A DNA stretch of 64,000 nt from Fragilaria crotonensis. Taxonomy: Eukaryota > Bacillariophyta > Fragilariophyceae > Fragilariales > Fragilariaceae. Shown here one piece after another: positions 8,740 through 59,087 of the stretch. The stretch lies in assembly GCA_022925895.1 (NCBI GenBank), contig JAKSYS010000321.1:1-64000 (forward strand), read 5' to 3'. Within the stretch, counting starts at the first letter, position 1. Every line of letters starts with the position of its first letter. The position numbers and the translations under genes are program-made. The notes below the pieces were generated by a model. The model did not search any database. It had not been told where the DNA came from and was given only the letters and a program-made list of their open reading frames with translations.

Positions 8740-8884
8740 CGATGCGGCTACATGCATACGGTGAAATTTACATATCTAGATAAAACTCTCGCGGGTAAAA
8801 CCGCCGGGGTGGGGTACGCATTCTGGGCCTAACGGTTTGGACGCGGCGATAACCCAATAATTAGTTTACGTTTTGTTTTGTTTT
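8740..8884 (+). other. LINE A copy 1 3' UTR with conserved hairpin and TTTTG tail
   Basis: The segment from CCGGGGTGGGGTACGCATT to the tail is shared with copy 2. A stem-loop at 8823-8840 (CTGGGCC, loop TAAC, GGTTTGG) pairs through several G:U wobbles, while copy 2 has the Watson-Crick version. The end is a short run of TTTTG units, not poly(A). It is probably the RNA end recognised by the LINE RT (inferred). Confidence 0.7.
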
Positions 8885-8900
8885 CGGGACGGTGACAACG
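8885..8900. repeat. Right target-site duplication of LINE A copy 1
   Basis: Exact match to 14-29, directly after the TTTTG-type tail. Confidence 0.9.
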
Positions 8901-9148
8901 TTAACGAAACCCTTGCAGGTCCGGTTGTCCGGATGGAAAGGAACTGTGGGGCGTTGTTGTCACCGAGGAATGGTTGTGACGAGAACGGAATGGTGTCTCT
9001 TGAAAATAGGATACCAAGAAAGAAGCCACGCTCGAGGTAATTCAATGCATGATACTAGTACTACGTTATGGATGTCGTTGCTTGATGACGAGCTATGTGT
9101 GCCGCCGCTTCTTCTTCTTCTTCTTCTGCGTGCTCTTCTTCGTGGCTG
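8901..9148. other. Unassigned stretch next to the transposase 3' end
   Basis: No convincing reading frame. It contains a short (TTC)n microsatellite near 9107-9127. It is probably 3' flank of the minus-strand transposase gene. Confidence 0.4.
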
Positions 9149-9641
9149 TCAGCATTTCTCCTTTGACCACGTTTGGGGCGAGCACGTTCTGCTTTCTTTC
9201 GTATCGATGCTCAACGGAGGCTTCGTCGCGAGAGAGTCGTAGCAACTTTGGATCATTGAATCCCATGCCTTTGGCCAGTCCACTTTGCGACGGATGAGGA
9301 ACAAATAATGCTGGTCACTATTTGAGCAGCCGATGTCAGGAATTCCTATTGTTGGTGAGTTGATGCTCTCAACATCCACAAGATACAATGTTGGAGCACT
9401 GCTGTTGGGCAAATGTCGATAGATGGTGTATCGACCGATCATGGAGTTTGGGATGTCCATCTCGTCATCGTCAACTGCAGCAAAGGAATGAACAAGAGCA
9501 TACACTCCTGCCTCTATGGGTGGCTGGTCTGAGGACGGAATCCCTGATTCTCATTCCAGCGGCAAGCCACCTGAGATCAACAAAGGTGTGAATAAGTGCG
9601 GGAATTGGATTGTCAAAGCCATGCCACTTCACCATGGCATG
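9149..9641 (-). pseudogene. C-terminal part of a Plavaka/CACTA-like transposase, cut off by the DIRS-like insertion
   Basis: Read on the minus strand, this piece starts HAMVKWHGFDNPIPALIH, repeating the last residues of the main piece at 16415-19182. It continues with a conserved tail (SFAAVDDDEMDIPNSMIG, then PTLYLVDVESI) to a stop at 9149. It is the natural 3' end of the gene, displaced by 6.8 kb. There is one frame change near 9556, so it carries its own damage besides the insertion. The segment gives about 160 residues of coding sequence. The link to the main piece rests on the shared 32-bp junction and the continuous direction of reading. Confidence 0.75.
9610..9641. repeat. Left copy of the 32-bp duplicated target of the DIRS-like element
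   Basis: These 32 bases occur again at 16415-16446 without a mismatch. They code for HAMVKWHGFD of the transposase on the minus strand. Inside lies a symmetrical site: CATGCCA (9620-9626), an 8-base spacer, then TGGCATG (9635-9641). Confidence 0.85.
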
Positions 9642-9790
9642 GCATGTCCGAAGTTCGGGAAAGGGAGAGCAGTCGCCGTCAGACAGACGAACACGAGACA
9701 CAGACAGACGAACACCCGGACACAACACAAGATGCGAATTGCTCACAATCCGGACGAACTCGAATCAACAAAGACACTACTCTAGTTAAT
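9640..9790 (+). repeat. Split direct repeat A1 of the DIRS-like element
   Basis: These 151 bases begin TGGCATGTCCGAAG and end CTCTAGTTAAT. They are repeated at 16050-16200 with no mismatch seen. Confidence 0.92.
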
Positions 9791-9854
9791 TTAATCTGGC
9801 CTCTTCCCTCAAACCACCAACCGACCGACGACTCGAACGACGAACGCAGATAGG

Positions 9855-11740
9855 ATGGCCGACATGTCGTCCCCTATGACGATGACGTCTACGTGGGAAG
9901 ACGTCTTCCGTGCCCTTGACCAGTGGGAAGTGGTCCCGAAGCTCAACAGATTACACACGAAATCGAATTCGATTAATACGGAGTCTACAGGGTTTGTACA
10001 CCTGTGTTCGCCGGACATCGCACACCTGATGGTAAACACGCACGGGACGATCCGTCTGTTCCACCACTTTCACCACGACGCCGACGACGGACTAAACGAC
10101 GGAACGAACGCCCTATGGGCACTTCTCGGCGGCGGTGGATTCGCAGCCGCCATGGCGGTCGACACGAAACAGATCGTCAGAAGCCACGTTGGAACGCCTT
10201 ACGATTGGTCCAAAATGCTCACGTGGAATTCTACGTCCGACGTACGAAGAGCGATTGAAGAATTGGTGACGACGAGATCTTCGGTGTCAGGCGTCAGCGA
10301 GAGCGCCGGACAGGCATCGGCGCCGGCGCGGGAGCCACCTCCTGTGGCAGCGACGAGAGGACGCCCCAAGAAAGGCAGTGCCCCAAGAGGCAGATCCAAG
10401 TCGAGCAAACATACTAACGAGACTAACGACCAAGACAAGACGAACGACGCGGACGCGGACGACACAGAAGACGTCACGGTCGTCGGTTTCACCATGAAAC
10501 CGACAGTACCAGTTCCGGCGTTCATCGCAGCAGCCATCATGGAATCATACGTCACCGACCCTGAGGAATTGGCCCTGATGATAGTCAGGACCATCAAACA
10601 GAGGGCGAGTGAGGACCCGGACCCCGACCGGGCGTCGAGGTTGGCCGAAGCAGCGTCCTACGTACCTCGATGGGTTCTCTGCGTTGCAGCGAGCACCAGA
10701 ACCACTCACGGTCCAACAAAGTGGGGAGTGGCGGCTTCGTCAGCTTACTCTAGGCGAGCGGACGACTGGGCGAAAGTCCTACACATGAAGTACCTGGCCG
10801 TGAAGGCTAAAAGCCTCATCCAATCGGACGATCAGTCAGAAACGCCAGGACGAGAGAACGACGCCATCAGAAACTTGTCGAGCCTCCTCGAAAGACAGGT
10901 CGCTAGCGCAGTCGCGTCATCTCCTCAAATCCCGAAGACAGGATTCGACTCGTTCCCCCCCGTCGACAAAGCGGATGATCCTGTTCGTTTCGGAGAAGGA
11001 CGCCTTGGGGAGGACCCCAACTCGCCCCGTCCAGACCTTCGCAGACATCCTAGCGCTCAGCAACGTGGCGTACGTCCAAAACCACATACACCATTTCTTG
11101 CGCAACACGAAAGGGAGGGATGCATTCATCCCAATGGGTTTCTGCGCAGCCATTCGGACCGCATCCTTCCTAGCCGACGCTTCGGACAGACCAGGAGCCT
11201 TCAGCCTTTTTTGCTGCGGGCCCCAGACGCTCGCACGATCGAACGCGACGGGCAGGGATGCTCTCGACCACGCAAGCACCCTTGTTCAAATGCAACTTAA
11301 GACGACAGACACGACAACTGGATTCTCGGACAAAGACATCAAGAGCATGACGAAGCTCAATTTCACTATCCCGCGTGATTTTCACGAGCTCGCGCGACTA
11401 CTCGAGAACATGGCGGGGTGGCCGAGCTCCTCTTCGGCCCGCGGTCCCCGTTGACGCATATGTTGGACGAGTGGTGTCGTTTCCTGACGCGAGCAGTCGG
11501 ATCGACCTTAGCGACGTTACGACAGCTAGCTCACGAAGACAACTCGGCCGCCTGTCGCCTCGGTTGGTTCATCGAGAAACGCACGCAACAATACTTGGTG
11601 TTGTGCGCAGGAGTGGAACACGAGGACGATATCAACCTGAATCTGCTAGACTTCCGTTCGACGCGTCAGCAACTGGAGGACGGAGCCTTCGTCTTCCCGC
11701 CTGCGACTTCTTGAAAGACAGGATGGGGTCCGGGGCAGCG
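9855..11740 (+). pseudogene. DIRS-like element: gag-like region with AT-hook
   Basis: This region encodes the putative structural protein of the element. The first part (MADMSSPMTMTSTWEDVF) precedes a globular segment. A basic, Ser/Asp-rich linker at about 10330-10480 holds the AT-hook-like motif RGRPKKGSAPRGRSK, which may bind DNA or the element's nucleic acid. A second helical segment follows (PVPAFIAAAIMESYV, then RASRLAEAASYVPRWVLCV). I do not recognise it as a named Gag family. Position before the RT and conservation of style with other diatom YR elements support the role. Fossil, not intact. Confidence 0.6.
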
Positions 11741-11888
11741 CTGCCGCGAAGGCGGAAGCCCCAGCGCATCAGGAGGAGGCGGCGCACGATCTGGACGAAA
11801 GGGACAACCAGCAGACGCTGTCACGAACCCGCAGCAGGACCTGTTCACGAAGGACGCCAACGACGTCTGGCAGGTCTTCCTCGATCAC

Positions 11889-13058
11889 GTGCGGAGCGGG
11901 CCGCTCCCGAACATGTGCTGCCGCTGGCACTTGAACGGCAAGTGTGTCCGGAGCTGCTTCCTGAGCGCTTCGCACGTCGCCCTTACGACCGAACAAACCG
12001 CGAGCGTTAGGGCATGGATCGAACAATGCAGGGCGCGCATGCGCCGACCCTCGTCCGACTCGACGCCGCCCAGCAAGAAAACGAAATTAGGACCCTCTGC
12101 ATCTGCTTACACTACAACTTTTTTCGTCGCTCAGCCTTCCCGGTGGTCCTTTGATCACGAGGCAGCCCATCGCGAATTTCACAATCGACGAACGACAGGG
12201 GACGCACCGCCTTTCCGCGACTCGCGCCAGCCGACCGATGGACCCATAGCGGGTCCGTCCATAGCAATCCCGGCTGCACAACCACGCCCGACGGCAACGA
12301 TCGCCACGCATGAGACATCGCTCGCGGCCGCGACACCGCCTCGCCCCGCCCGACCGCCCACGACCGTCCGCCGCGGAGCTGACCGCCCCGGCACTGCGAA
12401 CGAGGACGTTCGTCTCACGTCACGACTCCTGGACACCCCCTCTGGGGGTCCTAGGACCAACGGTAAGTCACTCGCCCTGGTTCCACTTCCGACGATACCG
12501 CTTCCGAATGTCGACTCGCCTTTCCCGCGCCTTCCCGAACCTCGACTCGCCGATGCTCTGGCCAGCATCCTCGACGCCCCAGCCGACGACGCACCCGACC
12601 GAATTCCGCTTCGAATGGACTCACGAGGCGGCCGCTCACAACCTGGCAGTCCTCCGGCGCTACGCGCTGGACCTCGGGCAGCCGTGGACGCCCAACCGTT
12701 CAGCGCGGTGACACCCGGATCCGAATTTCGATCCGCCGCGCTCCTGGCGCCGCTCCTCTCCGCACACCCGCTCTGGTCGCGCTTCCAAGAGCGCATTTCA
12801 GACGGCGCGGATTTTCCCCTCGAGATTTCCGACGCCGACCGCCTCGCCGACGTCCGCGACAACCTCGCCCGTGGCAATCACAAATCGGCCCGAGGCCACG
12901 AAGCGAAGTTGATATCAATGCTAAAAGAAGAAGTGGAAAGGGGCTGGCAACTGCCCCTACCGAGAGGCCGCTCTGGAATTAGAAGGCTGCGAGGTGGCGC
13001 CTTTGGGCATGGTGGCACAGACATCGATCGACGAAGGGACAGACCATCGAGAAGCTAA
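11889..13058 (+). pseudogene. DIRS-like element: zinc-knuckle region and Pro/Arg-rich linker
   Basis: Near the start is CCRWHLNGKCVRSCFLSASH, a compact Cys/His cluster typical of nucleic-acid-binding knuckles. It is followed by a long Pro/Arg/Asp-rich low-complexity linker leading to the RT. I assign it as the end of the gag-like region or the start of pol, from position and the Cys/His spacing only. Strong GC richness here differs from the AT-rich sequence to the right of the element. Confidence 0.5.
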
Positions 13059-13059
13059 G

Positions 13060-14560
13060 GCTCACACGACCAGTCATTCAACCCCAGCGGGATCCCAGGA
13101 CGAAGCGTAAACGACAGAGTGGACACGTCACAACTGACGACCGCACGATTTGGCAGGGCTTTCAGTCGACTGATGTACCACATCTCGTACCTCAGACAAT
13201 TGTGGCCGAAAGAACCCATCCTCCTCACAAAGGTGGACTGCAAATCCGCCTACAGACGAATACACTTAAAGGCACGAACCGCCCTGAAGTCTTGCACTAG
13301 CATTGACGACCTGCTCCTCGTGGCACTCAGGATGACTTTCGGAGGAGCACCAAACCCGTCCCAGTGGAGCGACGTGTCCGAAGTAATCACGGACCTTGCG
13401 AATGACCTCGTCAGGAGATCAGACTGGGACCCGAAGGTATTCCACTCGCCGCATCAACACTTGCTTGATTCTGACGAAGCCGTAGATAACGACGATGGAA
13501 TGATCGACGGGTCGAGCGAATTCGGAGAAGCCGATTTCTTCGCTGTGAACTACCCGATCGCAAACGACGACGATCTACCCAGATTCGACTGTTACCTGGA
13601 CGACATTTTTGGGGCTTTCAACCCAAGAGACGCAGAAAAGAGCTCGGCAGCGATTCCCCTTGCATTGCACATAGTGGGAAGACCCCACAACGCAGAGGGA
13701 CGAATCCTTTCCCAGAGACGACATCCTTGCCATCCCGAAGTTCCTGGCCGAGGCGAAACCATCTGAGCGGAAGATGATCTTGGGATGGCTGGTAGACACA
13801 CGCCGCTTCACGGTCGCTCTGCCTGAGGACAAATACCACGCATGGACGAAAGTGATCGACAAGATCCTAGCGAACAGGCATGCGCACGTAACGACGAACG
13901 ATCTGGAGAAGACCCTCGGACGACTCAGCCACGCCGCATACGTCGTCCCGTACTCCAGGCATTTCATGGGGCGACTCTACAAGGCATGCGAGAGATCGAA
14001 ACGAAGTGGAAAGACGAGACTGACGAATCCCCAACGCGATGACCTGAGCCTTTGGAGGAGCTTCCTGCGAAGAGCGGCGCAAGGGATCTCCATCAACAGA
14101 TTGGTCTGCAGGTGGCCGACGCGAATCGTTCGGGTGGACGCTTGCCCGCAAGGGATAGGAGGATATGGTCTCCAAAGCGGGATTGCTTGGCGATACCAAC
14201 TGCCCGAAGATCTAGCGGGACGAGCGACACTTAATACGTTGGAGTTTCTAGCAGCCTTCGTGGGAATGGTAGTCGAATTCCGCGAAGGAAAAAAGTGGTC
14301 GCCAGTCTCGGACGTCCTGCTAAGCCAAGGGGATAGCACCTCGGCCGCAGGGTGGCTGGCAAAGTCCAGCTTCGACGACAACTGTCCGCTTCACCTCACC
14401 ATCGCGAGGAGTTTCGCTGATTTCTGTCTGACGCACGAGATCGACCACTACACTCAATGGTTCCCGGGGCGAGAGAACAAGGTGGCGGACATTTTATCGC
14501 GAGACTTCGCGCTCGACGACGACGAGGTCACCTCGCTCATCAGGAAACATGGCTCACCCT
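13060..14560 (+). pseudogene. DIRS-like element: reverse transcriptase and RNase H
   Basis: The RT part shows LLTKVDCKSAYRRIHL (motif A), LRMTFGGAPNPSQWSD (motif B) and CYLDDIFGAF (catalytic YLDD box). It is followed by GWLVDTRRFTVALP, the connection typical of DIRS/Gypsy-like RTs. RNase H follows at about 14110-14510: VRVDACPQGIGGYG, LNTLEFLAAF, QGDSTSAAGWL, and FPGRENKVADILSRD at its end. The RT groups with DIRS rather than Copia or LINE types on these motifs (by eye). Fossil, not intact. Confidence 0.82.
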
Positions 14561-14964
14561 TTGTCCCACAGAACTTCAGGATCATCCCCTTGCAGCCAGC
14601 CCTCATTTCGCAGATTGGAGACTGGCTGCGTCTGCCCAAAACGCAGCTCTTGCCGACTCAACCCGCGCCAAGCGCAGCAGCAGCTGGAACTGCTACGCAC
14701 GATTCCTCGAGCGAGTCGGAGTCGACCTCGACCCTTTTCTCCGCCGGTTCGGACGAAACGAAAGGACGGAAATCTTCGCGTGTTTCGCTGCCGCCCTTCG
14801 GGACGGACGGCTTCGCTCAGACAGCCTGCGACAGATGGCAATGGAGCCATGTCCGGTACCATTCGTGCCACCCTCGACGGTGTGGCTCAGACCTTCAGGC
14901 TTAACAAACTTGAGAGCCCAATCCACGACTCCGCCGGACGCCTCGACCCCTTCTGGCTTTACAA

Positions 14965-15800
14965 TTGAAGAAGTACGCGGACGACGACCCGGGAGTCGCA
15001 CAACAACAAGCCATTCCTCTTGAAGTGATCAGGAAGGTGAGATCCTGGTCCAGGAACGAGTTGGACGTGGCAGTCGGACAACTGGTGGTCACGGCCTTTT
15101 TCTTCGCCATGAGGTCTTGCGAATACTCCGACGTGGGAGGCGGCAGACGAACATCGGTAGTCAGAGTAGACGACGTTCGATTCAGGAAACAGGACGAAAC
15201 GCTGACGACTTTCTCCTACGAACAAACCCGAAATGCAGACGCCGTAACGATCACCTATCGACAACAAAGAACGGAGACAAAGGAGCGAAGGTGACGCAGC
15301 ACAGGAACAACAACCCCGGTCAGGCAGACATATGTCCGGTACGGACACTTGCGGAATTGATTCACAGAATTAGAGGCTACGAACGACTTGGTCGGACGAA
15401 CCCGAAGATAAACGCTTTCGTATCGACAACATCGAACGAGCTCGAACACGTCTCTTCGAAAACGATCCTCGAACAGCTGAGGGCCGCGACAATACTATCA
15501 GAGGAGAGGCTGGGACTCCAGGCCGATCGAATCGGTACGCACTCGATTAGGTCGGGCGCGGCCATGGCAATGCACTTGGCAGGTGTGCCAAGCGAAACGA
15601 TACAGATGGTGGGCCGTTGGCGGAGCAGGACGTTCATGAGATACCTACGCATCCAAGTGCCAGACACCACGATCGGGGTCGCCACGCGCATGACGAATCG
15701 ACAAACTTTCTTCACAGTCGCCCATGATCCTGCGGACGAACGACAACCGGAAAATGGCGGAAACCAGGTCGACTCACAACGACGCGACGGACCCCGCTAG
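14965..15800 (+). pseudogene. DIRS-like element: tyrosine recombinase
   Basis: The catalytic signature of phage-type integrases is visible. There is an arginine in FFFAMRSCEYSDV, then an HxxR box in GTHSIRSGAAMAMHLAGV, a GRW motif (MVGRWRSRTFMRYLR) and the nucleophile tyrosine in that last segment. This enzyme replaces the DDE integrase of LTR elements and would insert a circular DNA form by strand exchange at short matching sites. That fits the inverted-arm site found at the element's ends. Fossil, not intact. Confidence 0.85.
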
Positions 15801-15872
15801 ATGAATATCACGGGACCGACCCCGCGAGACGAACCAGGAGAGAGACAAAACTATTAGGACCAGATTCCGATG
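15756..15872 (+). repeat. Split direct repeat B1 of the DIRS-like element
   Basis: These 117 bases start GGCGGAAACCAGGTCG. They match B2 (16290-16409) apart from a C-run and an AG-run of different length. The recombinase reading frame ends inside it. Confidence 0.88.
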
Positions 15873-16049
15873 CCATCTATTTAGTTCCACTAGCCTCGTG
15901 AACATGAAGGAGAATCCAGAAAACCACACACAGCAACACGAATCGACGCGACAGTACGCGAGACAGCGGTACGACGAAACCACTAGGCGGCCGACTCATC
16001 CGACTAAACGGACTTAGAGAAATGCGGACAAGACTCGGAATTTATTTCG

Positions 16050-16200
16050 TGGCATGTCCGAAGTTCGGGAAAGGGAGAGCAGTCGCCGTCAGACAGACGA
16101 ACACGAGACACAGACAGACGAACACCCGGACACAACACAAGATGCGAATTGCTCACAATCCGGACGAACTCGAATCAACAAAGACACTACTCTAGTTAAT
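16050..16200 (+). repeat. Split direct repeat A2 of the DIRS-like element
   Basis: Second copy of the 151-bp A repeat, separated from B1 by about 177 bp and from B2 by about 89 bp. Confidence 0.92.
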
Positions 16201-16289
16201 CCCACCCACCCACACCTCCTCTCCTGGCCCGATGCCTAGGTTCATCGGCGCCTCCGGCGCCGGTTACCTCCTGGCCATGCACTGCATGG

Positions 16290-16409
16290 GGCGGAAACCA
16301 GGTCGACTCACAACGACGCGACGGACCCCCGCTAGATGAATATCACGGGACCGACCCCGCGAGACGAACCAGGAGAGAGAGACAAAACTATTAGGACCAG
16401 ATTCCGATG
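16290..16409 (+). repeat. Split direct repeat B2 of the DIRS-like element
   Basis: Second copy of B (120 bp), placed five bases before the right-hand 32-bp target copy. It forms the right terminus of the element. Confidence 0.88.
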
Positions 16410-16414
16410 TTGGC

Positions 16415-16446
16415 TTGTCAAAGCCATGCCACTTCACCATGGCATG
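16415..16446. repeat. Right copy of the 32-bp duplicated target of the DIRS-like element
   Basis: Identical to 9610-9641. Its inverted arms lie at 16425-16431 and 16440-16446. Confidence 0.85.
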
Positions 16447-19182
16447 ATCGTTCCATGGTTTGCCGTCATAAATGTTGGGATGGGCACGGTACCGGTAACC
16501 CTTCTTGCAAATGAACTCCGTGGCACATGACAGCTTACCATCTGGTGCGTGCGGTAGGAAATGGTCGGCGAGGTGCTGTGTGATGTGTGATGGTAGGCGG
16601 TCCTTTTCCACATCGTCCGATGGACCATTGCGTTTCCACTGGAAAGTGGCACTTCCGTCACCGATTGGCCACGTGATGTGGAATTGGCGCCCAGCCAATT
16701 TGCCACGAGGGGGGTGGGTTTCACTTCTTGGAAGGTCCTGTACTCTGTGGCTATTTTGGGTTTGCGTGTCGCGTGACATGTCCGCTGATGCGAGGGACAC
16801 AACAAGGTTTTCAATGTAGCGGTGAGCTGCTTGCCTTGTGAAGGAGACGGCACGTTTCTGTGTGTTGCGTGTGGTTGACTTTGCAAGGGGAATGTGTGCA
16901 GACTCCGCGTACGCACTGTTGACGTTCTCCGGAACACCGTGATCCAGGATGTCTTCACAGAGATGGAGGACCAGGTGGAACTTGATCGTGTTGTTACCCA
17001 TGCCAGTTTCTCGTGGTGACACTTGGGCAAACTGGCGCACCAGCCACTGCACAGCAAAATGTGATTTTCGTACTTGGGCTTTCGCGATGGCGGGTTGTTT
17101 CATCCATTGATGCCATTGTAAGAGCGACGACACTAATAGCCTCCAATCTGCAACGTGTTTGTCACTGCTTAAGGGTGGAACTTCCGGAAGGTCCTCGTCA
17201 TCGGAACTGGAACATTCCAGAACGGGTTGCTTTCTTTTCTTGCATTTCTTTTCCTTTTTTCCCATCTGGAAGATGAGACCGAAGCACGTGGTGTGAAGTG
17301 CGAACAACTTCACCAGGAGGCACCCAGCTATCTCATGTCCCACCAGATTTGAAGCGGACGAGAATCCTTTTGGGAAGTTGGTTCGTGGGATGTCCCGATC
17401 ACTCTGTCGGGACAATTGTTGTCCGATCATGGAACAGAGCCTATCATACTGTTTCAGAGCAATGGAACCAGAACCACCTGCTTGTGACGAGAATGCCTCA
17501 AGGCAGTACTTGAACCAACCGAGGGAGATCAAGTGGAGCATCTCGCCTGGGCATGCCCCAAAAATACCCCTGTCATTGTGCTGACCAAATCGAACCTGGT
17601 TGAAGCCATTCTTTAGATAGTTCTGAGACATGGACTTGAGTGTTTCCAGATCACCACGTTCGACAAGTTTATTGATGGAAGCTGCTTTGCGGTGGGGAAA
17701 CTTGGATTTTGAGTACCCGCTCAGGTTCGTGGGACATTCACAGGTTCTACAGAGTTGTTTCACCGCAGCAAATCGTGCAGTATAGTGACCGCAGAGACGA
17801 TCGTGACCCTCGGTGTCACCGATGATAAACGGAACGTACGGGTGCAACACAACTGGATAGATTCTCTCATTGTAGTGCAAATTCCATTTGAACCCATGCT
17901 CTTGTAACCGTAAAAAACCGGATTGTTCAAGGATGAACTCGATCTGCATGTGCATCTCATTCTGTAAATACGTTGGCCAACTGACATTTTTGAGGCGCTT
18001 CAATGGGGCTTCGGCAATGACAGTCCCAGGTGGAAGTGTGACGTCTGGCACATTGAAATTGGTGGCGGTGTCATTGGCACTTGGTTGCGGGACGTGTGCG
18101 GGGGTGCTGTGGTTTATGTAACCAAGGATACGCATTGCAATTGGTTTGGAGCGCATGCTGTGCTTTAAGAGACCATGGGATATTGTTATTGGCTCCATCT
18201 GCAAATGGCCTGCGAGATCGATATGTGTCTTGTCCATGGCCAATATAGAAGGTAGGATCATGTCGCGGTCTCTTTTCTTCACGAGTGCGTTGTATGTTTT
18301 TTGGTAACAACGACCAGTATTAATATCACCGATGTCTCCGGACTTGGACGGCTCCGCAAATGGATCCTTCTGATCATCGAATAGGAAATATTCATCCCGA
18401 TTTAATGTTGGACATGAGAGCAGTGATGCAAAAACTTCAGCTGCATCAAAATATACCATGGACACTGTCCGCTTGGAGTAGGGAAGGTACAGTTGCTTCT
18501 CTATCGGAATCAGTCCGTTCATGTTGTACCGTTGATACAATTTCCTAATGACCTTCTCGCGTGAAGGTTGACAACCGACCTTGAAGAAATGGCCACTCTC
18601 ATTTGATTTTGCGGCCCAATTGAGAATGAGGGAAAAACTTTTGAGGGGTGCCTTCAGATCCGTAAGAAGCTGCAAAAGCTCAATTTGGACTTTCTCCTCT
18701 CGAGTAAATCGATCAAGGCCAAGTGGATTTGATCGCAGTAAAGAAAGCTCTTCATAAAGGTGCAACACACTTTCATCAGGTTGTACTTCGTCATCACGTA
18801 TCTCTGAACAGTCGTGTAAAATGTCAGATGCTCCATCGTCGAATGAAGGAATTGCTCCATCGTTAATGCTGTCGGCATCTTCAATTGAGTTGCTCTCCTC
18901 AGGAGAGTGCGTCATTTTGTTTCTTTCCCTTGACGAAGAGAAATTCCGATCAACTGCTTGGACAGATGATGAAAACCTGCTTGTTGTTGGGACGTTTGAA
19001 GTGACAGAGCCATTTAGACAAGTGTTATGTATTGTTGCAAGGGGTGGCGTATTGTGTGCCGTGTCATTGGTGGTATAATGCATTGCACATGCGGCATTCT
19101 GAGTAATGTGAGTAGAAAGCCTCTTGTATGATTTGTGACACCCAGCACAAACAACTAATCCAGGGCCGGATTGACGCCGCAT
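16415..19182 (-). pseudogene. Plavaka/CACTA-like DDE transposase, N-terminal nine tenths, interrupted by the DIRS-like element
   Basis: One open frame of about 920 residues starts at MRRQSGPGLVVC (19182) and would continue at 9641. Residues near the start form a Cys/His finger (VCAGCHKSYKRLSTH). The core shows the Plavaka-type order: FDAAEVFASLLSCP, DINTGRCYQKTYNALV, then SILAMDKTHIDLAGHLQMEP and IGDTEGHDRLCGHYTARF with a following CRTCECP cluster. GACPGEMLHLISLGWFKY and NNTIKFHLVLHLCEDILDHG follow. These make a cut-and-paste transposase of the CACTA superfamily the best call; Plavaka membership is from recalled motifs. A run of Lys and Asp/Ser (KKEKKCKKRKQPVLECSSSDDE) is probably a nuclear-targeting linker. 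Apart from the insertion the frame is open, so the gene died recently. No TIRs were located. Confidence 0.78.
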
Positions 19183-19739
19183 TGTTGACAACGTTCTCGC
19201 AAAGGAATGACGTTCTTGCAAAGGAATGACAACAGGATGGTAACTCGACACGATAGATGCAACAAATAAACTAAGCAAAATGAGCAAAAGCCCAAGGTGC
19301 TTACCAAAGTTGGAGTATAAAACAAAAATGATGACCGAGAATATACATGAAGCAGTGGTTGACAAAGAAACAAGGAAGGTTGAACGAACAACTTTTGGAT
19401 GTTGAAAGAATGAACGAATGAAGTGGAAAGCAAACCACTCATATCACAAGTAAAATAAACAATGGGAAAACAGAACAATGCCGATGAACCAAGCACTGAG
19501 ATGTTATATGCAACATTACAATTGTGAACAACCATATAAAATGTTGAACACAACGGCATCAAAATCGTAGACATGGCTAGAAGAATCATTTCCTAATTGA
19601 GTATTGGACATATCAAATTATATTATAACAATTAAGGTTTAGAATTGACAAAATATAAGTAAATATAGGCCAGAAACATTCAGAATATAAACAAATTTGT
19701 TGAGAATCTAACGAAATCTTCAACAAATTATGACCATAT
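19183..19739. other. AT-rich region between two Plavaka-like genes
   Basis: Read on the minus strand it gives only hydrophobic, cysteine-rich noise. On the minus strand a GTGTGT donor-like site sits at about 19752 at the end of the second transposase fragment, so part of this may be an intron of that gene. No terminal repeat was found here. Confidence 0.4.
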
Positions 19740-23677: not shown

Positions 23678-25294
23678 TCATTCACTTGTCTTCTCCTTTT
23701 TGGAGCCTTCCCCTTCCTCCGCCCACTTATCAACGGGTAAGGGTTGTGTATTGAGACTTTTCAAAAACGAGCAGAAGGATTTGGCCGGAGTAATATTGTC
23801 GTGTAACTTCTTGATTTGCCGTATGTGTTCCCTTGTGAAGGCAAGGTTTTCAGAATAGTCGTTTTTTTCCAGTTCCCGCAATGTGAGGTTGTTGTATGGG
23901 TCGATCAAAACGGCCTCAACCCTCTTCGATACATCGCTCATTTTGTCAATGAAGATAAAGTTAAAACCATTCTCGGCCAGGCTAGTTGACACTACTACTT
24001 TGAGAAACATTCGCACATTCTGCACCTTTCTGATATCGGCCTTTTTCACCCTGAGTGCCATAGTAAATTCGTCAAACGACTTACTGGGACAACAACCCTG
24101 AAACACGCCGACGTCGGAGATGCTTCCGAATGTGCGATTAACAACCTCCATCGTAAGGTCTTCGACTCTCTCATACAGGTGGTCGGTTTTCCCATCCTTA
24201 TCAAGAGATATGCCTTTAGCTGCGGCGAGAATTCCGGTAATGATTCCAAGAACATTACTGGCAGTATTCCATGACGGAGCATTCGGGCTGGCGGCTGAAA
24301 CGGCTGAAACGGCAGCCCCCAAAAACCCAGTGATTAAAGTGATCCACCCTTGAATCCTGGCTAACAGCAATAGCCCCATCAAGATGGTCATCACTGGAAG
24401 GTACACAAAATAAGCAAAAATGTGCAGGACAATCACGCCCGGAGACTTCCACCTTCGAAATATGTTTTCTTCTGGTTCACCTAGTACATCCAGGGGTTGT
24501 AAATCGCACAATACGTCATAGATAAGCATCGTGGCATTTAAGTCATCAAACCAGTTTTCCTGTCGGGCAATCTCAGCAATGGATTCGAGTACAACCTTGA
24601 CTTCACCAAGGTTAACAACACTCTCGTCCATGATGTCTTTTTTCAAAAAGCTGGTTTGAAGTCGCTCTGATAATTCTTTCTGTCTATCGCATAATCGTTG
24701 TTCTTGCTCCTTAAGCTTCTCAATCAACGATGTCAATACCGGGCCAGCCTTTGTTTTCTTCACGAGCAAGTCGTAGTGACCGGCTTTCTCGTCTGTCCCA
24801 CCGTTATCTGTAAATAATAAGTATATGATTGCTCTGCCTTCCTCAACATCCACGCTAGGCCTTCGAACGATACTGTATTCCAATTGGTCATTGTTCTTTT
24901 GGCCTTTAAAAACCTTGACTTGATGTCGAGTTTGGATTTCCAATGCTCTGATCTCCCTCTCTCCTCCCCACATATTGGTACGTAGAGAACTAATATATTT
25001 CTCCAGTGACTCGTTCTCTGTAAAACTTGCTTGCAGATCAGGACTTTTCTCAAGGTAGTTTGCGGCCATGTCGCGGTAGTATTGAAAATTCCCCTCATCG
25101 CCATCAATGCTCTTTGCAAAGGCTCGAAACAAGCAATGCCCGTCTCCTGCTATCCTTTTCACCTCCAAATCAAATTCAGATTCAGGGATACCCGCTCCCA
25201 TCCTGTTGGTGTTGTGTTCCGTGGCCACAGAATAAGCACTGTCAATCAACTTCCGATCTTTCCCACTCAACAGGACGCTGAAGTACTTGAACAT
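23678..25294 (-). CDS. Predicted membrane-anchored OTU-family cysteine protease (deubiquitinase-like)
   Basis: This is an uninterrupted frame of 538 residues from the first ATG (25294). The OTU domain spans about residues 45-180. AGDGHCLFRAF carries the catalytic Asp51 and Cys54, MWGGEREIRALE matches the conserved WGG helix, and GHYDLL supplies catalytic His173. OTU enzymes cut ubiquitin or related chains. A Glu/Lys/Gln-rich coiled-coil-like stretch follows (residues 185-215). Two strong hydrophobic segments come next (about 286-311 and 317-336), with a weaker one near 347-360, then a roughly 180-residue charged C-terminal domain I do not recognise. This suggests an enzyme held at a membrane with both globular ends on one side (inference). 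It is the only plainly intact host gene here. No intron is needed. The frame stays open upstream of the ATG, so a start a little further up cannot be excluded. Confidence 0.82.
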   Translation of the reverse strand: MFKYFSVLLSGKDRKLIDSAYSVATEHNTNRMGAGIPESEFDLEVKRIAGDGHCLFRAFAKSIDGDEGNFQYYRDMAANYLEKSPDLQASFTENESLEKYISSLRTNMWGGEREIRALEIQTRHQVKVFKGQKNNDQLEYSIVRRPSVDVEEGRAIIYLLFTDNGGTDEKAGHYDLLVKKTKAGPVLTSLIEKLKEQEQRLCDRQKELSERLQTSFLKKDIMDESVVNLGEVKVVLESIAEIARQENWFDDLNATMLIYDVLCDLQPLDVLGEPEENIFRRWKSPGVIVLHIFAYFVYLPVMTILMGLLLLARIQGWITLITGFLGAAVSAVSAASPNAPSWNTASNVLGIITGILAAAKGISLDKDGKTDHLYERVEDLTMEVVNRTFGSISDVGVFQGCCPSKSFDEFTMALRVKKADIRKVQNVRMFLKVVVSTSLAENGFNFIFIDKMSDVSKRVEAVLIDPYNNLTLRELEKNDYSENLAFTREHIRQIKKLHDNITPAKSFCSFLKSLNTQPLPVDKWAEEGEGSKKEKTSE

Positions 25295-25517
25295 CCTGTG
25301 AAGATACCATACCAGTTTAGCGTCGAAATGCAAGTGATTTCTACTGCGATAATTCTAGCCTGACGTGGCGACATTTCAACGCACGCTTTCGAGCAGATGA
25401 TTCTAAAGTACGAATATTCTGCTGACGTGTACTTCCGGCAGTTTACTGGGACATGCGGAAATCCTTCTTAGTGGGGTTAGAGATAACCGTTTTCACCGTT
25501 AAATATATTTAAACTCA

Positions 25518-27434: not shown

Positions 27435-28266
<832 letters not shown>

Positions 28267-28289
28267 CGCTTCCTCTGCGCTAAGCTAGA

Positions 28290-29586
28290 ATGGCTGCTAA
28301 CTTCGCTTTGGCTCCGGCTCAAGCCGTCGATGGCCCCCCTCGACTACTCAAGGGCGGAACATCACAAGATCTATCGATCGGGAATTCGCGCGGTCACCGA
28401 CGACCCATTCCCATGTGATGCCGACAGACTCTTCCAGTTCCTACGCGAAGTCCAAGACCGCGCTATGGAAATGGGATGGATGGATGGCATCCTAAATGTC
28501 ACCACGAATCCAGGAGAAGAAGTCCCCGACGAGGAAAACATGCTCGAGAACTACGGAACCATCACGTTGGAGCAAGTCATCGAGTCTGAGAGGACGTACA
28601 TTGGATCTCAAGTACGCAAGGCACAAGACACCTACATGTTGTACCAATGCCTCATGGCCTCCCTAACGAGCGAGGCGAAGAAGAAGGTCATGATCTGGGC
28701 AGATCAGTACCAGGTCGAGATCGATGGCGCCAGGTACAACAGTGGAGTGGCTCTCTTGAAGATTGTGATTCGCGAGAGTCACTTGGACACGAACGCGACA
28801 ACGAATCAAATCCGAACCAAGTTGTCGACGTTGGACACATACATCATCACCATCGACAGCGATATCGGAAAGTTCAACCAATACGTCAAGCTCCTCATCC
28901 AGTCATTGTCGGCGAGAAACCAGACAACCTCCGACCTTCTCATCAACCTCTTCAAGGGTTATGGTGCAGTGAGCGACGAGACGTTCAGAGCTTGGCTCAC
29001 TCGCAAGCAGGACGACCACGAGGAGGGGAACGAAATATCCCCTGACGACTTGATGATATCGGCGAAGAACAAGTACGACGCCATGGTCGAGAAAGGTACC
29101 TGGAACGCCCCACAGCGGAGGAAAGATCGTCGCTCTCGAAGCGAAGCTCACCTCCACAATGAAGAACCTGAACAAAAGGTCTCCATCGAGATGGGAAAGA
29201 AAAGTGCGTCCACAGGGAAAAGCAAGACCGGAGAGCGGACCAAACAATCGGGCAAGGATGGTGGAAAGGCTGAACACCCTAAGAACTGGCCTCCACCAAA
29301 GCCCGGTGAGAAGAAGGTAGCCAAATTCAAGGAATTCACCTACTACTGGTGTGGCAAGGACACCGGCGGCACCTGTGAAAAATGGAGGGCACACAAGCCC
29401 AAGGACTGCCGCGGAGGTGCACCACCACCCAACTCGGAAACACATGCGACGAAGAGAACCGCAAGCTCCGACAACAAAGACAACAAGAAAGGAATTGTCA
29501 AGAAGTTGAAGATTGCGAAGGCCTATGTTGCAAAGATGGAGCAGAAGGTCGCTGAGCATGAAGTATCCGACGAAAACAGTGATTGA
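28290..29586 (+). pseudogene. Copia A gag region
   Basis: This is the Gag-type structural part. It shows a helical capsid-like stretch (YLDYSRAEHH-like start, then LTSEAKKKVMIWADQYQ, NQTTSDLLINLFKGYG). A Lys-rich linker and a Cys/His cluster follow (YWCGKDTGGTCEKWRAH) that stands in for a zinc knuckle. Its position after the LTR and its resemblance to other diatom Copia Gags support the call. Confidence 0.75.
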
Positions 29587-29599
29587 CGGGGAGGGTGGG

Positions 29600-32500
29600 C
29601 CGCGACTTTGGCAACGACGTTATTAACGATAACGTTACTAGTGCTGACGATAACTATGCAATGGCCTCAACCCACCCTACTACTCACAACAATTAAGCGA
29701 ATCGGACACACGATCCGAGAGCGTGTCGAACCAGCCCTCTGCGACCTAACAACTAAAGCGTTGCGAACCGCGAGGATTCCGATCCAACTGCTCATCGTAT
29801 TGATCGCGTCGATCCTCAAATCACCAACGATCAGAAGGAGGAAACGCAAGCCTCCAGGTTGGTGGATGAGAGGATCGAAAGAGGCGACACGGTTGGCAAA
29901 CGTGGTAGGCGAATGGATTGAACGCATCGCTGCCACGCCGAGAGGAACGAGACGACGCCGGATACGAGGCGCAGTGCATCGACACTGTCGCACCACGTGC
30001 AAGGTGATGGCGATGTCCGCCGTCTTGGCAATGCAGGCGAACGCGACCATATCGACCGAGAGGGAGGTACGTTTCGATACGGACTCCGAACTCGTTGGAA
30101 TAGATAATCGATGCTCTGCGTGCATATCCCACGACCCAAATGATTTCGACGGACCACTCGAACCAAGCAATCGAATTGTTAAAGGTTTTGGGGATCCAGA
30201 ACAACGAACATCAAGGTCACGTTAAAATGGAGTTGGGAGGACGACCAGGGAATTGTCACAACGTTCAAAATCCCGAATTCGTACTACGTTCCAGATGGCA
30301 GAGTGCGATTGCTCAGCCCACAACATTGGGCCCAGACGCAAGCACGCCACAAGCGACACCAGCGCGAGTGCGGAGAGCGCACCGATGGCAACGAGTGTGT
30401 CATGTTTTGGGACGGTGGACGACACCAGAAAACAATTCAACTGGGAAAACGGGACAACGTTGCGACGTTCACGTTGGCTCCAGGGTACCGGAACTTCAAG
30501 GCGTTCTGTTGTGAGGCCGATCTGAACGAACCAATGTCAGATCCAATCGCCTTGCCAAGTGGGATCATCTCCGACGACGAAGATGAGCAAGCGGACGCGT
30601 ACGATGTGGAGGAACGACCGTCTGACGAGGCAACTCCATGGCAACAAACATGGACGCCCCCTCCGACAACGACCGAAACCGATGAATCCGCTAGAGCGAC
30701 GCCCGTCGACTTCTCCTTAAATGGCCCCTTCACAACGGCCTCAGAGGGAGGAAACACAACGGAGCCCACGTCAGAAATAAACGTCATAACCGACGAGGAA
30801 GACCGACAACCGAGCGACCTGGCCGAGCTGTTGATGCTACACCATCAATACGGCCACATCTCGATGCGCAAGCTACAAGAGATGGCCAAGCAAGGCATAC
30901 TCCCGAAACGACTCGCAACCTGCAGGATACCAACATGTTCGGCGTGCCTATACTCGAAGGCAACACGGCGACCATGGCGAGGCAAGACATCCAAACTAGG
31001 GAAGGAGGGTGAAACGGCCCAACGACCCGGACACGTCGTATCCGTCGACCAACTAGTCTCTCCGACACCAGGTTTAATCGCGCAGATGACGGGATTCCTG
31101 ACGACGAAGAGATACAAATATGCGACAGTGTTTGTCGATCAATTCAGTCGACTCGGTTTTGTCTACCTACAAAAGACAGCCTCGGCCGAAGAGACGATAG
31201 AAGGCAAGAAGGCATTCAAGCATTCGCACAACGACATGGCGTCCGGATCTCGAACTACCACGCCGACAACGGCATATTCAAAGCCCACCAATGGATGGAG
31301 GCGTGCAGAAAGGACCAACAAGGAATGTCCTTTGCAGGGGTAAACGCCCACCACCAAAACGGCCATGCCGAAAGGCGAATAAGGGAGCTACAGGAATTGG
31401 CGAGGTCGATGCTAATCCACGCGAGTTCGCGATGGAAGGACAGCGTCACCGCCAACCTATGGCCCTACGCGATACGAAACGCGAACGAAGCGGTGAATAA
31501 CACACCGAGCTTCCAGGATCGAGACAGGAGGACTCCAATCGACATATTCGCAGGAACCAAAGTCTCGAGCAACCCCAAACACTGGAAACCTTTCGGGTCG
31601 CCAACGTACGTCCTGGAAAACGAACTCCAAGGACAGAGACCGTTCCACAAATGGAGACATCGATCAAAACCAGGCATCTACCTGGGCAAATCCCCACAAC
31701 ATGGGAGAAGTGTATCGCTTGTGTTGAGTCGAGAGACTGGACTTGTTAGCCCACAGTTTCATGTCGCTTTTGACCCAACGTTCGATACCGTCAAAGACGT
31801 CACCACGAAATCCATGTGGCAGATCCGAGCAGGCTTTGTTGCTCAGAGGGAGTCGGACTCCCAGGAGCGCAGGTCGAGACCTGCGAAGGATATGACGACG
31901 ATCACCGGTGCCGCGATGCGTGAGCAACGACCGGGATCAAACAAACGAAAGAGGAGTCAGGGAAAGTCAAAGGAGCAGGCACAAACAACGGACCCGCGAC
32001 ATGCAAGGGAACGAGCTGCAGCGAACGTCGGGGGCGACGGCCCACCGATACTCCGTTACGAAGAAGGAGCTTCAACGGAGATTGACAACACAATGGTCGA
32101 GACAACGACCAGGTCAGGCCGAAAGGCCAGGCCTGCACCGCGGTTGATCGAAGCGATGACGACGGAGATTTCAGATCTCACGTCGCACGATGTTGAAGGT
32201 GAGATCTTTTGCTACGTGGCAATGTTCCCCGACAACGACGAGATCAACTGGGACGAACCCCTACTTGCACTCAAAGCTGTGTCAGACCCAGACACAATGT
32301 ACTATCACCAAGCGATGCGAGAAAAGGACAGCGAAGAGTTCCAATCGAGTATGCTGAAAGAGGTGACGGACCAGTTCGAAAATGGCAATTTTACCGTCGT
32401 ACACAAGTCCGAGGTCCCCAGTGACCAAACCGTTTTACCGGCAGTCTGGCAGATGCGACGGAAGAGAGATGCGAAAACAGGCGAGATTAAGAAATACAAA

Positions 32501-33904
32501 GCGCGACTCAATATCGATGGCTCCAGGATGCGAAAAGGTGAACACTACGACATGACTTATTCACCCGTTGCATCATGGAACTCGGTGCGCATGCTCTTGA
32601 CCCTCACCGCTCTCCACGGATGGCATACGAAGCAGATTGACTTCGTGCAGGCATTCGCTCAGGCGCCGATTGAAAAGACGCTTTATATGAAGATACCGAA
32701 AGGTATCGACCTTGAATGCGACTCAGACCCGAAGGAATACGTTCTGAAGCTGCATCGAAACATCTACGGCCAAAAACAAGCAGGCCGAGTTTGGAACCAA
32801 TTCCTCGTTTCGAAGCTCGTGAATGAACTCAACTTTAAACAATCCAGGGTCGACGAATGTGTGTTCTATCGAGGGAAGACGCTATATGTCTTATACACGG
32901 ACGATAGCCTACTGGCCGGACCGGACAAAAGGGAGATCGAAAAGATCATCGAAGAATTGCAAACGAAAGCGAATCTTCAGATTACTGTTGAGGGCGACCT
33001 AGCGGATTTCCTGGGAGTCAACATCGACAGGAGGAAAGATGGGACAATACACTTAACGCAACCACACCTCATCGATCAGATTCTTAAGGACCTACGTTTG
33101 GACGACGAGAAGATCAACATCCGATCGACACCGGCAGCATCGTCGAAACTACTCGCGCGACACTCCAAAACGCCGTCGTTCGATGACTCGTTCAACTATC
33201 GTTCTGTCATAGGAAAATTAAACTACCTCGAAAAGGCAACGCGAAGCGATATCTCTTATGCAGTCCACCAATGCGCACGATTCGTATCGGACCCAAAGAT
33301 CGAGCACGGCGAAGCCGTGAGATGGTTGGGACGGTACTTGAAAGGTACGCGAAGTATGGGGACCATAATGAGGCCGTTAGCGGACAAAGAACTCGAGGTA
33401 TATGTCGACGCCAGTTTCTGCGGCGATTGGGACCCAGCGGAGGCAGCTAATGACCGCGATACGGCGAGGTCGCGACATGGTTACATAATCAACTACGCAG
33501 GCTGCCCTCTTCTGTGGAAGTCACAATTGCAAACGGAAGTGGCGTTATCATCCACCGAGAGCGAATACACGGGATTGAGTTATGCACTACGAGATGCAAT
33601 ACCGATCATGCAACTCTTAAAGGAAATGAAACAAAGAGGTTTTCCAATAAGTGCACCACAAGCGAGGGTACACTGCCACGTTTTCGAGGATAACAGTGGG
33701 GCGCTAGAAATGGCGAGAATCCACAAGTACAGGCCACGGACGAAACATCTGAACGTGCGACTACATCATTTCCGAGATTACGTGGAGCGAAAGGAAATAA
33801 GTATTCATCCGATAAGTACTCAGGAACAACCAGCTGATTTTCTTACGAAGGCGCTGAACGAAGAAACCTTGCAACGACATCGTCGCACGGTACTTGGTTG
33901 GTGA
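29600..33904 (+). pseudogene. Copia A pol region: protease, integrase, RT, RNase H
   Basis: The protease region is marked by VGIDNRCSACISHDP. The integrase has the HHCC zinc domain (LHHQYGHIS with CRIPTCSAC) and core motifs (VVSVDQLVSP, TVFVDQFSRLGFVYLQ). The RT has KQIDFVQAFAQAPIEKTLYM and the catalytic VLYTDDSLLAG. RNase H shows YVDASFCGDW, LSSTESEYTGLS and HVFEDNSGALEM. The order protease-integrase-RT-RNase H is diagnostic of Copia. Fossil. Confidence 0.88.
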
Positions 33905-33935
33905 CCTCCCCCATCCCGACGGGCGCGAGAGGGAG

Positions 33936-34134
33936 TGTGACGTAATCGAGGCTGAGTCAGGGTAATAGCGCTGACCCATCGGGAAAGTCATCGGTCATCG
34001 GAATTTCATTGTGAAATTCTGATCGTGCAATACATACCGGATACGAGCGAACCACTACTCGTGTTCGGAATTTGAAGAATAGATTTATCTTTATAATTTT
34101 ACTTTTTCACCGAAGTGAATCAACTTTAATTTCA
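33936..34134 (+). repeat. 3' LTR of Copia A
   Basis: Identical to 28068-28266 as far as I can read. Confidence 0.95.
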
Positions 34135-34339: not shown

Positions 34340-34627
34340 TGTGATAAACCCCGGTATCGGCCTCAATAAACTAGTATTGAAACGAATAACGGGTGGGCTT
34401 GAAAGATAAGTTTTTAATTTTTAGTTGTTGTGAGATTGATCTTGACTATCGGCTCGGTCACGAGTTGAGAAGGGCTATTTGCGTCCAATGGAATTCAATG
34501 TCCCGGGACCATGTTCAATCGTGTAGAGACAATAGAGTCCACTGTGACTTGTTCACGAATCATCGCTCACGATACATTTAGGGTAGCGTTCATGATAATA
34601 CTGTACCAGCAGTCTCGTATCGTCACA
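34340..34627 (-). repeat. Left LTR of Copia B
   Basis: 288 bp from TGTGATAAACCCC to GTATCGTCACA. It matches the two halves of the right LTR without a difference I can see. Confidence 0.93.
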
Positions 34628-40864: not shown

Positions 40865-41128
40865 AGAGGCATCCTTCCATGTCCTTTCTTGATTTAGTAC
40901 TTGCGCAGAGGAAGCGTGTGATAAACCCCGGTATCGGCCTCAATAAACTAGTATTGAAACGAATAACGGGTGGGCTTGAAAGATAAGTTTTTAAAAAGAG
41001 GCATCCTTCCATGTCCTTTCTTGATTTAGTACTTGCGCAGAGGAAGCGTGTGATAAACCCCGGTATCGGCCTCAATAAACTAGTATTGAAACGAATAACG
41101 GGTGGGCTTGAAAGATAAGTTTTTAATT
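40865..41128. repeat. 132-bp tandem duplication across the LTR/leader junction of Copia B
   Basis: The unit 40865-40996 (AGAGGCATCCTTCC to AGTTTTTAA) repeats at 40997-41128. Each unit holds the leader next to the LTR (GCGCAGAGGAAGCG) plus the first 80 or so bases of the LTR, so a truncated extra LTR end lies inside the element. Confidence 0.9.
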
Positions 41129-41177
41129 TTTAGTTGTTGTGAGATTGATCTTGACTATCGGCTCGGTCACGAGTTGA
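41049..41177 (-). repeat. Right LTR of Copia B, first part
   Basis: Matches the first 129 bases of the left LTR and ends at the LINE A copy 2 insertion point. The remainder of the LTR is at 49263-49421. Confidence 0.92.
41162..41177. repeat. Target-site duplication of LINE A copy 2 (left)
   Basis: CTCGGTCACGAGTTGA, repeated exactly at 49247-49262; part of the Copia B LTR. Confidence 0.93.
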
Positions 41178-41325
41178 ATAAAATAAAATATAAACTAATT
41201 ATCGGGTTGTCGCCTCGTTTGAGCCGTGAGGCTCAAAATGCGTACCCCACCCCGGCAGATGACTCTGCGAGAGTTAAAGCTATAAATATAAAAATGAGTC
41301 GTCCTGGGAGTCAAGATAACTGCCA
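41178..41325 (-). other. LINE A copy 2 3' UTR with perfect hairpin and TTTTA tail
   Basis: On the plus strand TTGAGCC (41219-41225), a four-base loop and GGCTCAA (41230-41236) form a perfect seven-pair stem. The equivalent stem in copy 1 keeps pairing with different bases. The extreme 3' end is a run of TTTTA units in element sense. Confidence 0.75.
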
Positions 41326-49153: not shown

Positions 49154-49246
49154 GGTGGCTAATCACGAGAAGGTTCCGTAAAAGGAGTACTAGGGACGGT
49201 TGACGGACGGAAGGGTGTTTCGAAAACTAAATTACTAGAAATGTGT

Positions 49247-49262
49247 CTCGGTCACGAGTTGA
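49247..49262. repeat. Target-site duplication of LINE A copy 2 (right)
   Basis: Exact copy of 41162-41177, next to the LINE 5' end. Confidence 0.93.
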
Positions 49263-52098: not shown

Positions 52099-52629
52099 TG
52101 TTTAAGATAAGCCGTCATGTCCAAAGAAACACTTACCACACAAGCAAGAAGATCAATAACAACAGGTTAAAACAATATTATAATATAACTAGTGGGTACC
52201 TCCCAATTGGTCGGACTTTTGGAATACGTGTACGGTATGGGTTGTGCACGGTTGTGTGTACTGTTTGTACAGTTCAGTACTATACGCAAGTAGTGCAGTA
52301 CCCCAGAGTGGTCATACTCCGTAACAGACGCACGCACTGACGCAACTACGTATATGCAAATCTTACCGACATCGCTTACGGAGTACTCCAGTATGCATGT
52401 ATGACATATATGCTCAGAGTATGAGACAGTATTCATTTGATCCAGTACCCCAGAGTGGTCATACTCCGTAACAGACGGACGCACGCACGCACACACGCAC
52501 ACAATTAATTTATAATATAGTAGGATATATAAAGATACACGTTACGTTCACATAATGACTGAATCACGAGTCCGGATCGATATAATGACCCACCGATAGT
52601 ACAGTAGACAGTACGACCAGCATTAAACA
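52099..52629 (-). repeat. Left LTR of Copia C, with inserted block
   Basis: Outer parts (52099-52187 and about 52526-52629) match the right LTR exactly as far as I can read. Confidence 0.88.
52188..52525. mobile_element. Unidentified insert of about 335 bp in the Copia C LTR
   Basis: It is bounded on both sides by TTATAATATA (52178-52187 and 52510-52519), which looks like a duplicated target. Inside, a segment containing GTACCCCAGAGTGGTCATAC occurs twice (about 52298 and 52444), each followed by an ACGCACGC tract. There is no TIR and no coding frame; possibly a small non-autonomous element. Confidence 0.6.
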
Positions 52630-52872
52630 GTCCCCGCGAACCGGACGTCGTGTGTATGCATGATAGCAAGAACCCTCACAAAATAAAACATCGACCTGCA
52701 TGTAGTAGCCCACGAGTCATGCTCGCGCAGGTACCGAACCGAACGAAACAATCGAACGGTGGAAACCTTGGGCATTCAGAAATTGTGCAAAATGGAAGTT
52801 ATCAACTCCTTTCGTCGATCCGCATGAAGTACTTTCGTAAACAAATCCGCCAAGTTTGTCTGCGTATCCTCT

Positions 52873-58410: not shown

Positions 58411-58893
58411 CCCTTCATACTCAATAAGTCGAGTTTGGGAGGATATCCCTCAATCCACACACGTGAAGAATAAAACGCATCGGCTGATGTTCCAACCCAG
58501 GAACATCGCTTCAAGATCAACGACGATGGGAATTTCTGCCATGATGTCTGTGTCAATTTACGAGAGGGTGTCAATACCACTCCTACGTGCGTGCGAATAC
58601 CAGCGATTTCGGACAACATATTGTGACCGCCGTGACCATGGGAGTCAACATCGCGCCAAGAGATGATCCGTCTCTGGCTTGTACGTACAAACGCAAAGGC
58701 TGGAACCCAGACCAATGCTCTATGACCGGCTGAGCGACCCCATGACGGTGGCCTACCTTAATCGCTCATACAATGCCATGTCATAGCATCACCTCGTCCG
58801 TTTATCCGAGGGGATGGCAACACATGGGTGTCGTCTTTTCAAAACGCAACTCCTCGTTCTCATATCTTTCTCAATTCACTGGGTCTGATAAAC

Positions 58894-59087
58894 TGTTTAA
58901 GATAAGCCGTCATGTCCAAAGAAACACTTACCACACAAGCAAGAAGATCAATAACAACAGGTTAAAACAATATTATAATATAATATATAAAGATACACGT
59001 TACGTTCACATAATGACTGAATCACGAGTCCGGATCGATATAATGACCCACCGATAGTACAGTAGACAGTACGACCAGCATTAAACA
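58894..59087 (-). repeat. Right LTR of Copia C (5' LTR in element sense)
   Basis: 194 bp, TGTTTAAGATAAGCC to CAGCATTAAACA on the plus strand; intact. Confidence 0.93.

Follow-up and report, generated by a model that had tools for sequence, protein, structure and literature searches.

The window analysed here is a 64,000-nt stretch of Fragilaria crotonensis DNA (GenBank assembly GCA_022925895.1, contig JAKSYS010000321.1, positions 1 to 64,000). It contains a retrotransposon with a tyrosine recombinase (YR), inserted in a gene for a Plavaka transposase. The repeats of the element follow the order A1-[open reading frames, ORFs]-B1-A2-B2, the plan called split direct repeats, and the whole is flanked by two copies of a short piece of the interrupted gene, which elements of this kind reportedly do not make. 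The parts of the locus are:

9149-9604, minus strand: presumed C-terminal remainder of the Plavaka gene, which itself contains a frame change; keeping one target copy puts it in frame with the larger part
9605-9641, no strand assigned: left 37-bp target copy, 36/37 identical to 16410-16446, its last 2 bases overlapping the start of A1
9620-9641, no strand assigned: inverted arms CATGCCA-N8-TGGCATG of the left copy (second instance at 16425-16446)
9640-9790, plus strand: A1 repeat (151 bp), 151/151 identical to A2
9791-15755, plus strand: element body, with gag-like, reverse transcriptase (RT)/RNase H-like and tyrosine-recombinase frames and frame changes
13059-13766, plus strand: RT-like frame (YLDD motif by eye; no Pfam match)
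13675-14904, plus strand: RNase H-like frame (motifs by eye; no Pfam match)
15024-15800, plus strand: C-terminal part of the tyrosine recombinase (HxxR, GRW and Tyr motifs by eye; PF00589 below its curated cut-off)
15756-15872, plus strand: B1 repeat, with no substitution and 3 gap bases against B2
15873-16049, plus strand: B1-A2 spacer of 177 bp, absent from the outer ends of the element
16050-16200, plus strand: A2 repeat, 151/151 identical to A1
16201-16289, plus strand: A2-B2 spacer of 89 bp, 68.5% G+C, with short hairpins
16290-16409, plus strand: B2 repeat, matched to B1; the right end of the element
16410-16446, no strand assigned: right 37-bp target copy, starting at the first base after B2
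16447-19443, minus strand: larger part of the host gene, a Plavaka transposase (reading frame 16264-19443; PF18759)

The flanking repeat is the feature that demands explanation. The sequence-only reading of this DNA had described 32 identical bases on either side of the element. They are indeed identical (9610-9641 and 16415-16446, 32/32), and the repeat extends leftward to 37 bp (9605-9641 against 16410-16446, 36/37), the one mismatch being at 9609/16414, the two copies beginning TTGGATTGTC... and TTGGCTTGTC..., respectively. In a self-BLAST of the window the flanking repeat has E = 2.4e-10, which rules out a chance origin of the 32-bp match. The right copy starts at 16410, the first base past B2. 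A1, as delimited by its identity with A2, begins with TG, the same two bases that end the left copy, and because of this overlap the length of the duplication is given as 35-37 bp.

The interrupted gene helps to decide whether one copy or two stood there before the element. The larger part matches PF18759 over residues 323-447 of the 1,059-residue frame (E = 8.2e-9; score 35.6 bits, cut-off 26.3); for the remainder beyond the site Pfam gave no match. An in silico join of the two parts that keeps one 37-bp copy carries the Plavaka frame across the site (...GKPWNDHAMVKWHGFDNPIPALIHTFVDLRW...). Counted from the motif HAMVKWHGFD, the first stop comes after 56 residues with one copy and after 21 with two tandem copies, which favors an ancestral site with one copy. 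The frames thus support, but do not prove, that the 37 bp is a duplicated target and that the empty site would have held a single copy. The further claim of the sequence-only reading, a YR retrotransposon with a genuine target duplication unlike what its kind is reported to make, finds support as well, the repeats being of the split type. No report of a long target duplication in a YR retrotransposon was found in the open-access literature searched, which is not proof of its absence in print.

The duplication can be compared with those of other insertions in the window. Two LINE-like (long interspersed nuclear element) copies, related to each other, were recognized by visual inspection of their reading frames and tails. 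The first has a 17-bp duplication (TCGGGACGGTGACAACG, 13-29 and 8884-8900) and TTTTG repeats at its 3′ end. The second (41178-49246) has a 16-bp duplication (CTCGGTCACGAGTTGA, 41162-41177 and 49247-49262) and sits in a repeat, whose uninterrupted relative at 34340-34627 has the site in single copy (34453-34468). A copia-like element (28065-34134) has 7 bp (ATATGAC) common to both ends, a part of which possibly belongs to the long terminal repeat (LTR). No clear duplication accompanies an LTR-like pair (52099-59087), where the best shared word within 40 bp of the edges is 6 bp long and lies off the edges. Duplications are seen in three of these four controls, none near 35 bp, and the 37 bp at the YR element is roughly double the length seen at the LINE-like copies (16 and 17 bp).

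The repeats of the element date the insertion. A1 and A2 agree throughout, and the 3 gap bases that separate B1 from B2 lie in a C run and a GA run; A copies without a difference and B copies without a substitution argue that the insertion is recent. Despite this, the open frames of the element (9642-16409) switch several times, and because the repeats are free of substitutions, some of the frame-switching insertions and deletions may be sequencing errors. A C7 run at 10955 lies near a gag-like frame change (by eye).

Coding content was recognized mainly from motifs. The recombinase matches PF00589 with E = 2e-4 and 1.1e-4 in two scans, both under the curated score cut-off; the match with E = 1.1e-4 covers profile positions 96-167 of 172 at 22.4 bits, against a cut-off of 27.1. 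RT and RNase H were identified by eye (YLDD and WFPGRENKVADILSRD), with no Pfam match. Sequence searches of the PDB gave nothing meaningful (best E = 0.33 and 1.2, to unrelated chains), and single-sequence structure predictions for the recombinase and the RT/RNase H parts were unusable (mean predicted local distance difference test scores of 41.6 and 39.4). Relatives were also sought in viral contigs, prokaryote genomes and phages, collections that are poor ground for a eukaryote transposon, with protein scans that detect close relatives only. The RNase H-like, Plavaka, recombinase and RT-like proteins had 0 confirmed relatives each in viral contigs, and the RNase H-like and recombinase proteins 0 each in prokaryote genome contigs. 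Exact pieces of A, the target and B had 0 matches each in viral contigs, and a piece of the recombinase had no match in phages.

The element is probably of the Ngaro/VIPER type and not of the DIRS1 or PAT type. It shares with Ngaro and VIPER the placing of A1 on the left and B1-A2-B2 on the right, internal repeats downstream of the recombinase and near-identical repeats. The order A1...B1-A2-B2 is given for Ngaro and VIPER, and split direct repeats likewise for PAT, in the parts of PMC4157794 and PMC6681497 available to us. By the features listed in the former (again in part), lack of a methyltransferase match speaks for Ngaro/VIPER. No such match was found by Pfam in the pieces scanned, a weak test since Pfam missed the RT too, and the gap between the RNase H-like motifs and the recombinase leaves little room for a methyltransferase. 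The 89-bp spacer between A2 and B2 becomes less odd in view of SIRE/VIPER, where about 30 exclusive bases lie between the two repeats according to an excerpt of PMC6681497. This spacer is CpG-poor relative to the element (0.65) and contains the hairpins CGGCGCC/GGCGCCG and CCATGCACTGCATGG. DIRS1-like elements differ in that no inverted terminal repeats join the ends here: among 10 inverted pairs of at least 16 nt in 9000-17100, none links the left end with the right end.

Besides the duplication, what sets the element apart from Ngaro and VIPER is that a 177-bp spacer separates B1 from A2. On the accepted circle-junction model, the boundary between B1 and A2 is the split-repeat equivalent of the circular junction of DIRS1-like elements, and the two repeats abut there. 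An integrated copy opened at that junction should have A1 and B2 reaching as far as A2 and B1, and therefore no gap between B1 and A2. DIRS1-like elements have a 3-bp circular junction, at which their internal complementary regions overlap and the ends are joined; recombination there leaves no duplication (PMC3266345, as far as its accessible text goes). Likewise, the Ngaro plan is written A1-[ORFs]-B1A2B2 in the portion of PMC8547959 at hand. Here B1 and A2 do not abut, a property that may not be defining for split-repeat elements and that we take partly from general background. The sequence of the spacer is found at neither outer end. Its CpG observed/expected ratio of 1.57 resembles that of the element (1.23-1.36) and not those of the Plavaka parts (0.77 and 0.82); its G+C content (49.7%) does not separate an origin in the element from one in Plavaka. 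Inverted arms of at least 5 bp (spacing 2-12), a possible mark of a lost junction, were not found in the spacer. As the 177 bp between B1 and A2 is absent from the outer ends, these ends appear incomplete, and this copy probably lacks up to 177 bp in total of its true termini, as would follow from loss of the outer portions of A1 and B2. Termini ought not to be missing from an insertion made by the recombinase, so incomplete ends point to a non-canonical insertion.

To the reading that follows we give a probability of roughly 0.5. A Ngaro-type YR retrotransposon was inserted recently in a Plavaka gene, where capture of an incomplete linear cDNA at a staggered break duplicated the target and gave rise to the 37-bp repeat. 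The inserted DNA would be a linear cDNA, either unfinished or never closed to a circle. Its ends would have been joined by the cell to a break with strand cuts offset by some 35-37 bases, and fill-in of both overhangs would have copied the target, leaving one copy on each side. What we infer here is that the ends are incomplete, that the intermediate was linear and that end-joining was the route. In mouse embryonic stem cells, the repair of breaks whose ends protrude is described, in the sections of PMC5730883 available, as giving direct repeats of the protruding segment, in tandem and with no inserted element. Incomplete ends together with a duplication fit the capture of linear cDNA better than recombinase-mediated insertion. 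This copy is, then, probably an aberrant insertion and not the product of a new insertion system.

Several points weigh against this. There is a single insertion to go by. The family may normally carry the 177-bp spacer, or the spacer may have been inserted into the junction later, and in either event the argument drawn from it would fall; that B1 and A2 are contiguous in split-repeat elements is in part general background. The frame test, too, is modest evidence: at 61/64 per codon, we estimate that chance would leave another 46 codons beyond the motif open about 1 time in 9, and the Plavaka frame changes again farther past the site. Finally, the joint adjoins a perfect inverted-arm site and A shares a 7-mer with one of the arms; end-joining predicts neither.

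The arms deserve a closer look for this reason. Both observations of the sequence-only reading on them stand: each copy of the target has perfect 7-bp arms around an 8-bp spacer, and the A repeat opens with TGGCATG (A2 at 16050; A1 at 9640, overlapping the target copy by 2 bases). CATGCCA-N8-TGGCATG has only these two occurrences in the window, and the arms of the left copy grow to 9 bp once the start of A1 is counted in (GCCATGCCA / TGGCATGGC). Among 37-mers taken at every fifth position, those touching the site omitted, perfect 7-bp arms occur at any spacing in 250 of 12,760 (2.0%) and at a spacing of exactly 8 in 26 of 12,760 (0.2%); with the site included, the counts are 259 and 32 of 12,793. 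A random sample of 37-mers gave arms in 73/4,000, and arms with spacings 6-8 in 11/4,000. As to the shared word, the 7-mer at 185 of 63,836 positions elsewhere in the window (0.3%) recurs in the site. The arms and the shared TGGCATG are mildly notable, after-the-fact signals. Moreover, the letters of the arms encode Plavaka residues (HAM...WHG, in the coding stretch HAMVKWHG), so the arms need no recombinase to exist. The suggestion that they reveal site choice by a recombinase is not supported: the signal is weak and Plavaka-coding, and simple strand exchange at the arms would leave no 35-37-bp duplication. Two related readings were rejected. Inverted arms alone are no proof of a recombinase site, given the 250 outside 37-mers that hold them, and a simple crossover at the shared TGGCATG predicts CACCATGGCATGTCC on the left and no 35-37-bp copy on the right, whereas CACCATGGCATGGCATGTCC is observed.

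A recombinase could account for the duplication in a more elaborate way, which we consider doubtful but which survives best among the alternatives, and which takes up the element-carried target raised by the sequence-only reading. An earlier copy at the same Plavaka site would have given rise to a circle that retained 35-37 bp of flank, and site-selective insertion of this target-carrying circle, with crossover in the shared stretch, would have restored the target on both sides. The arms look like a simple recombinase site, and A starts with the 7-mer of one of them; a target-carrying circle would account both for the duplication and for this shared 7-mer. There is a precedent of sorts in polinton-like viruses of cryptophytes, which code for a tyrosine recombinase: rare flanks resembling target duplications, 7-23 bp long and often partly symmetric, are recorded for 10/232 members of cluster C1 and two more in C2, and shorter ones for C5 (5/109) and C6 (1/66), in what was available of PMC12220804. 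An unexpected and often partly symmetric flanking duplication is thus common to these and to our element, but theirs are 7-23 bp and belong to DNA viruses with terminal inverted repeats, whereas here 35-37 bp flanks a retrotransposon. The same portion of that source judges the C5 and C6 flanks likely coincidental and states that tyrosine recombinases lack an activity that makes target duplications. In the element itself, the internal B1-A2 junction is without target sequence, the 177-bp spacer is left unexplained, and about 2% of 37-mers in the window have such arms at some spacing. The literature searched, seen in part, yielded no description of a retrotransposon circle carrying its flank.

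The machinery of a LINE acting in trans is an explanation we hold to be unlikely. Reverse transcription of the element RNA at a nicked target would produce a duplication together with ends of transcript length, from which the outer portions of A1 and B2 are missing, and such ends would account for the B1-A2 spacer. The two LINE-like insertions indicate that the machinery exists or existed, and they likewise duplicate their target. However, their duplications are of 17 and 16 bp, not 35-37, and the B2 end has neither a poly(A) nor the T-rich tail present at the 3′ end of both LINE-like copies.

It seems more unlikely still that a YR retrotransposon chooses CATGCCA-N8-TGGCATG in Plavaka genes and regularly leaves a 35-37-bp duplication, be it through a target-carrying circle or through two offset strand cuts. 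Least credible is that the duplication predates the element or is an assembly artefact: the frames speak only modestly against a tandem and no empty allele came to light, but a 37-bp tandem repeat in the gene is unlikely, as the single-copy join stays open longer (56 vs. 21 residues) and landing precisely between two copies would be a coincidence.

Some other features of the window may be recorded. The LTR-like direct repeats (52099-52629 and 58894-59087) consist of two pieces that adjoin on the right but stand 323 bp apart on the left, which looks like the result of an insertion into the left repeat; a 49-bp repeat lies inside the 323-bp stretch. At 40865-41126 a 130-bp stretch stands twice in direct orientation, the identical copies separated by 2 bp, and part of it also matches 34340-34417. 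A 558-residue reading frame on the minus strand (23678-25354) has the motif GDGHCLFRA, which we take to resemble that of OTU-type cysteine proteases.

In closing, VIPER and TATE are said to make no target duplication (PMC12278014, in the part consulted), as are DIRS1-like elements. The 37 bp found here differs from both, as a property of this copy and not necessarily of its family. If it records one aberrant event, the locus shows legibly how a recombinase retrotransposon can enter a genome other than by canonical recombination, the absence of the circle-junction sequence giving the event away. If the event is recurrent, the rule of no target duplication in this order would have an exception, and the insertion step, described as a model in the literature available to us, would become testable by counting flanks.

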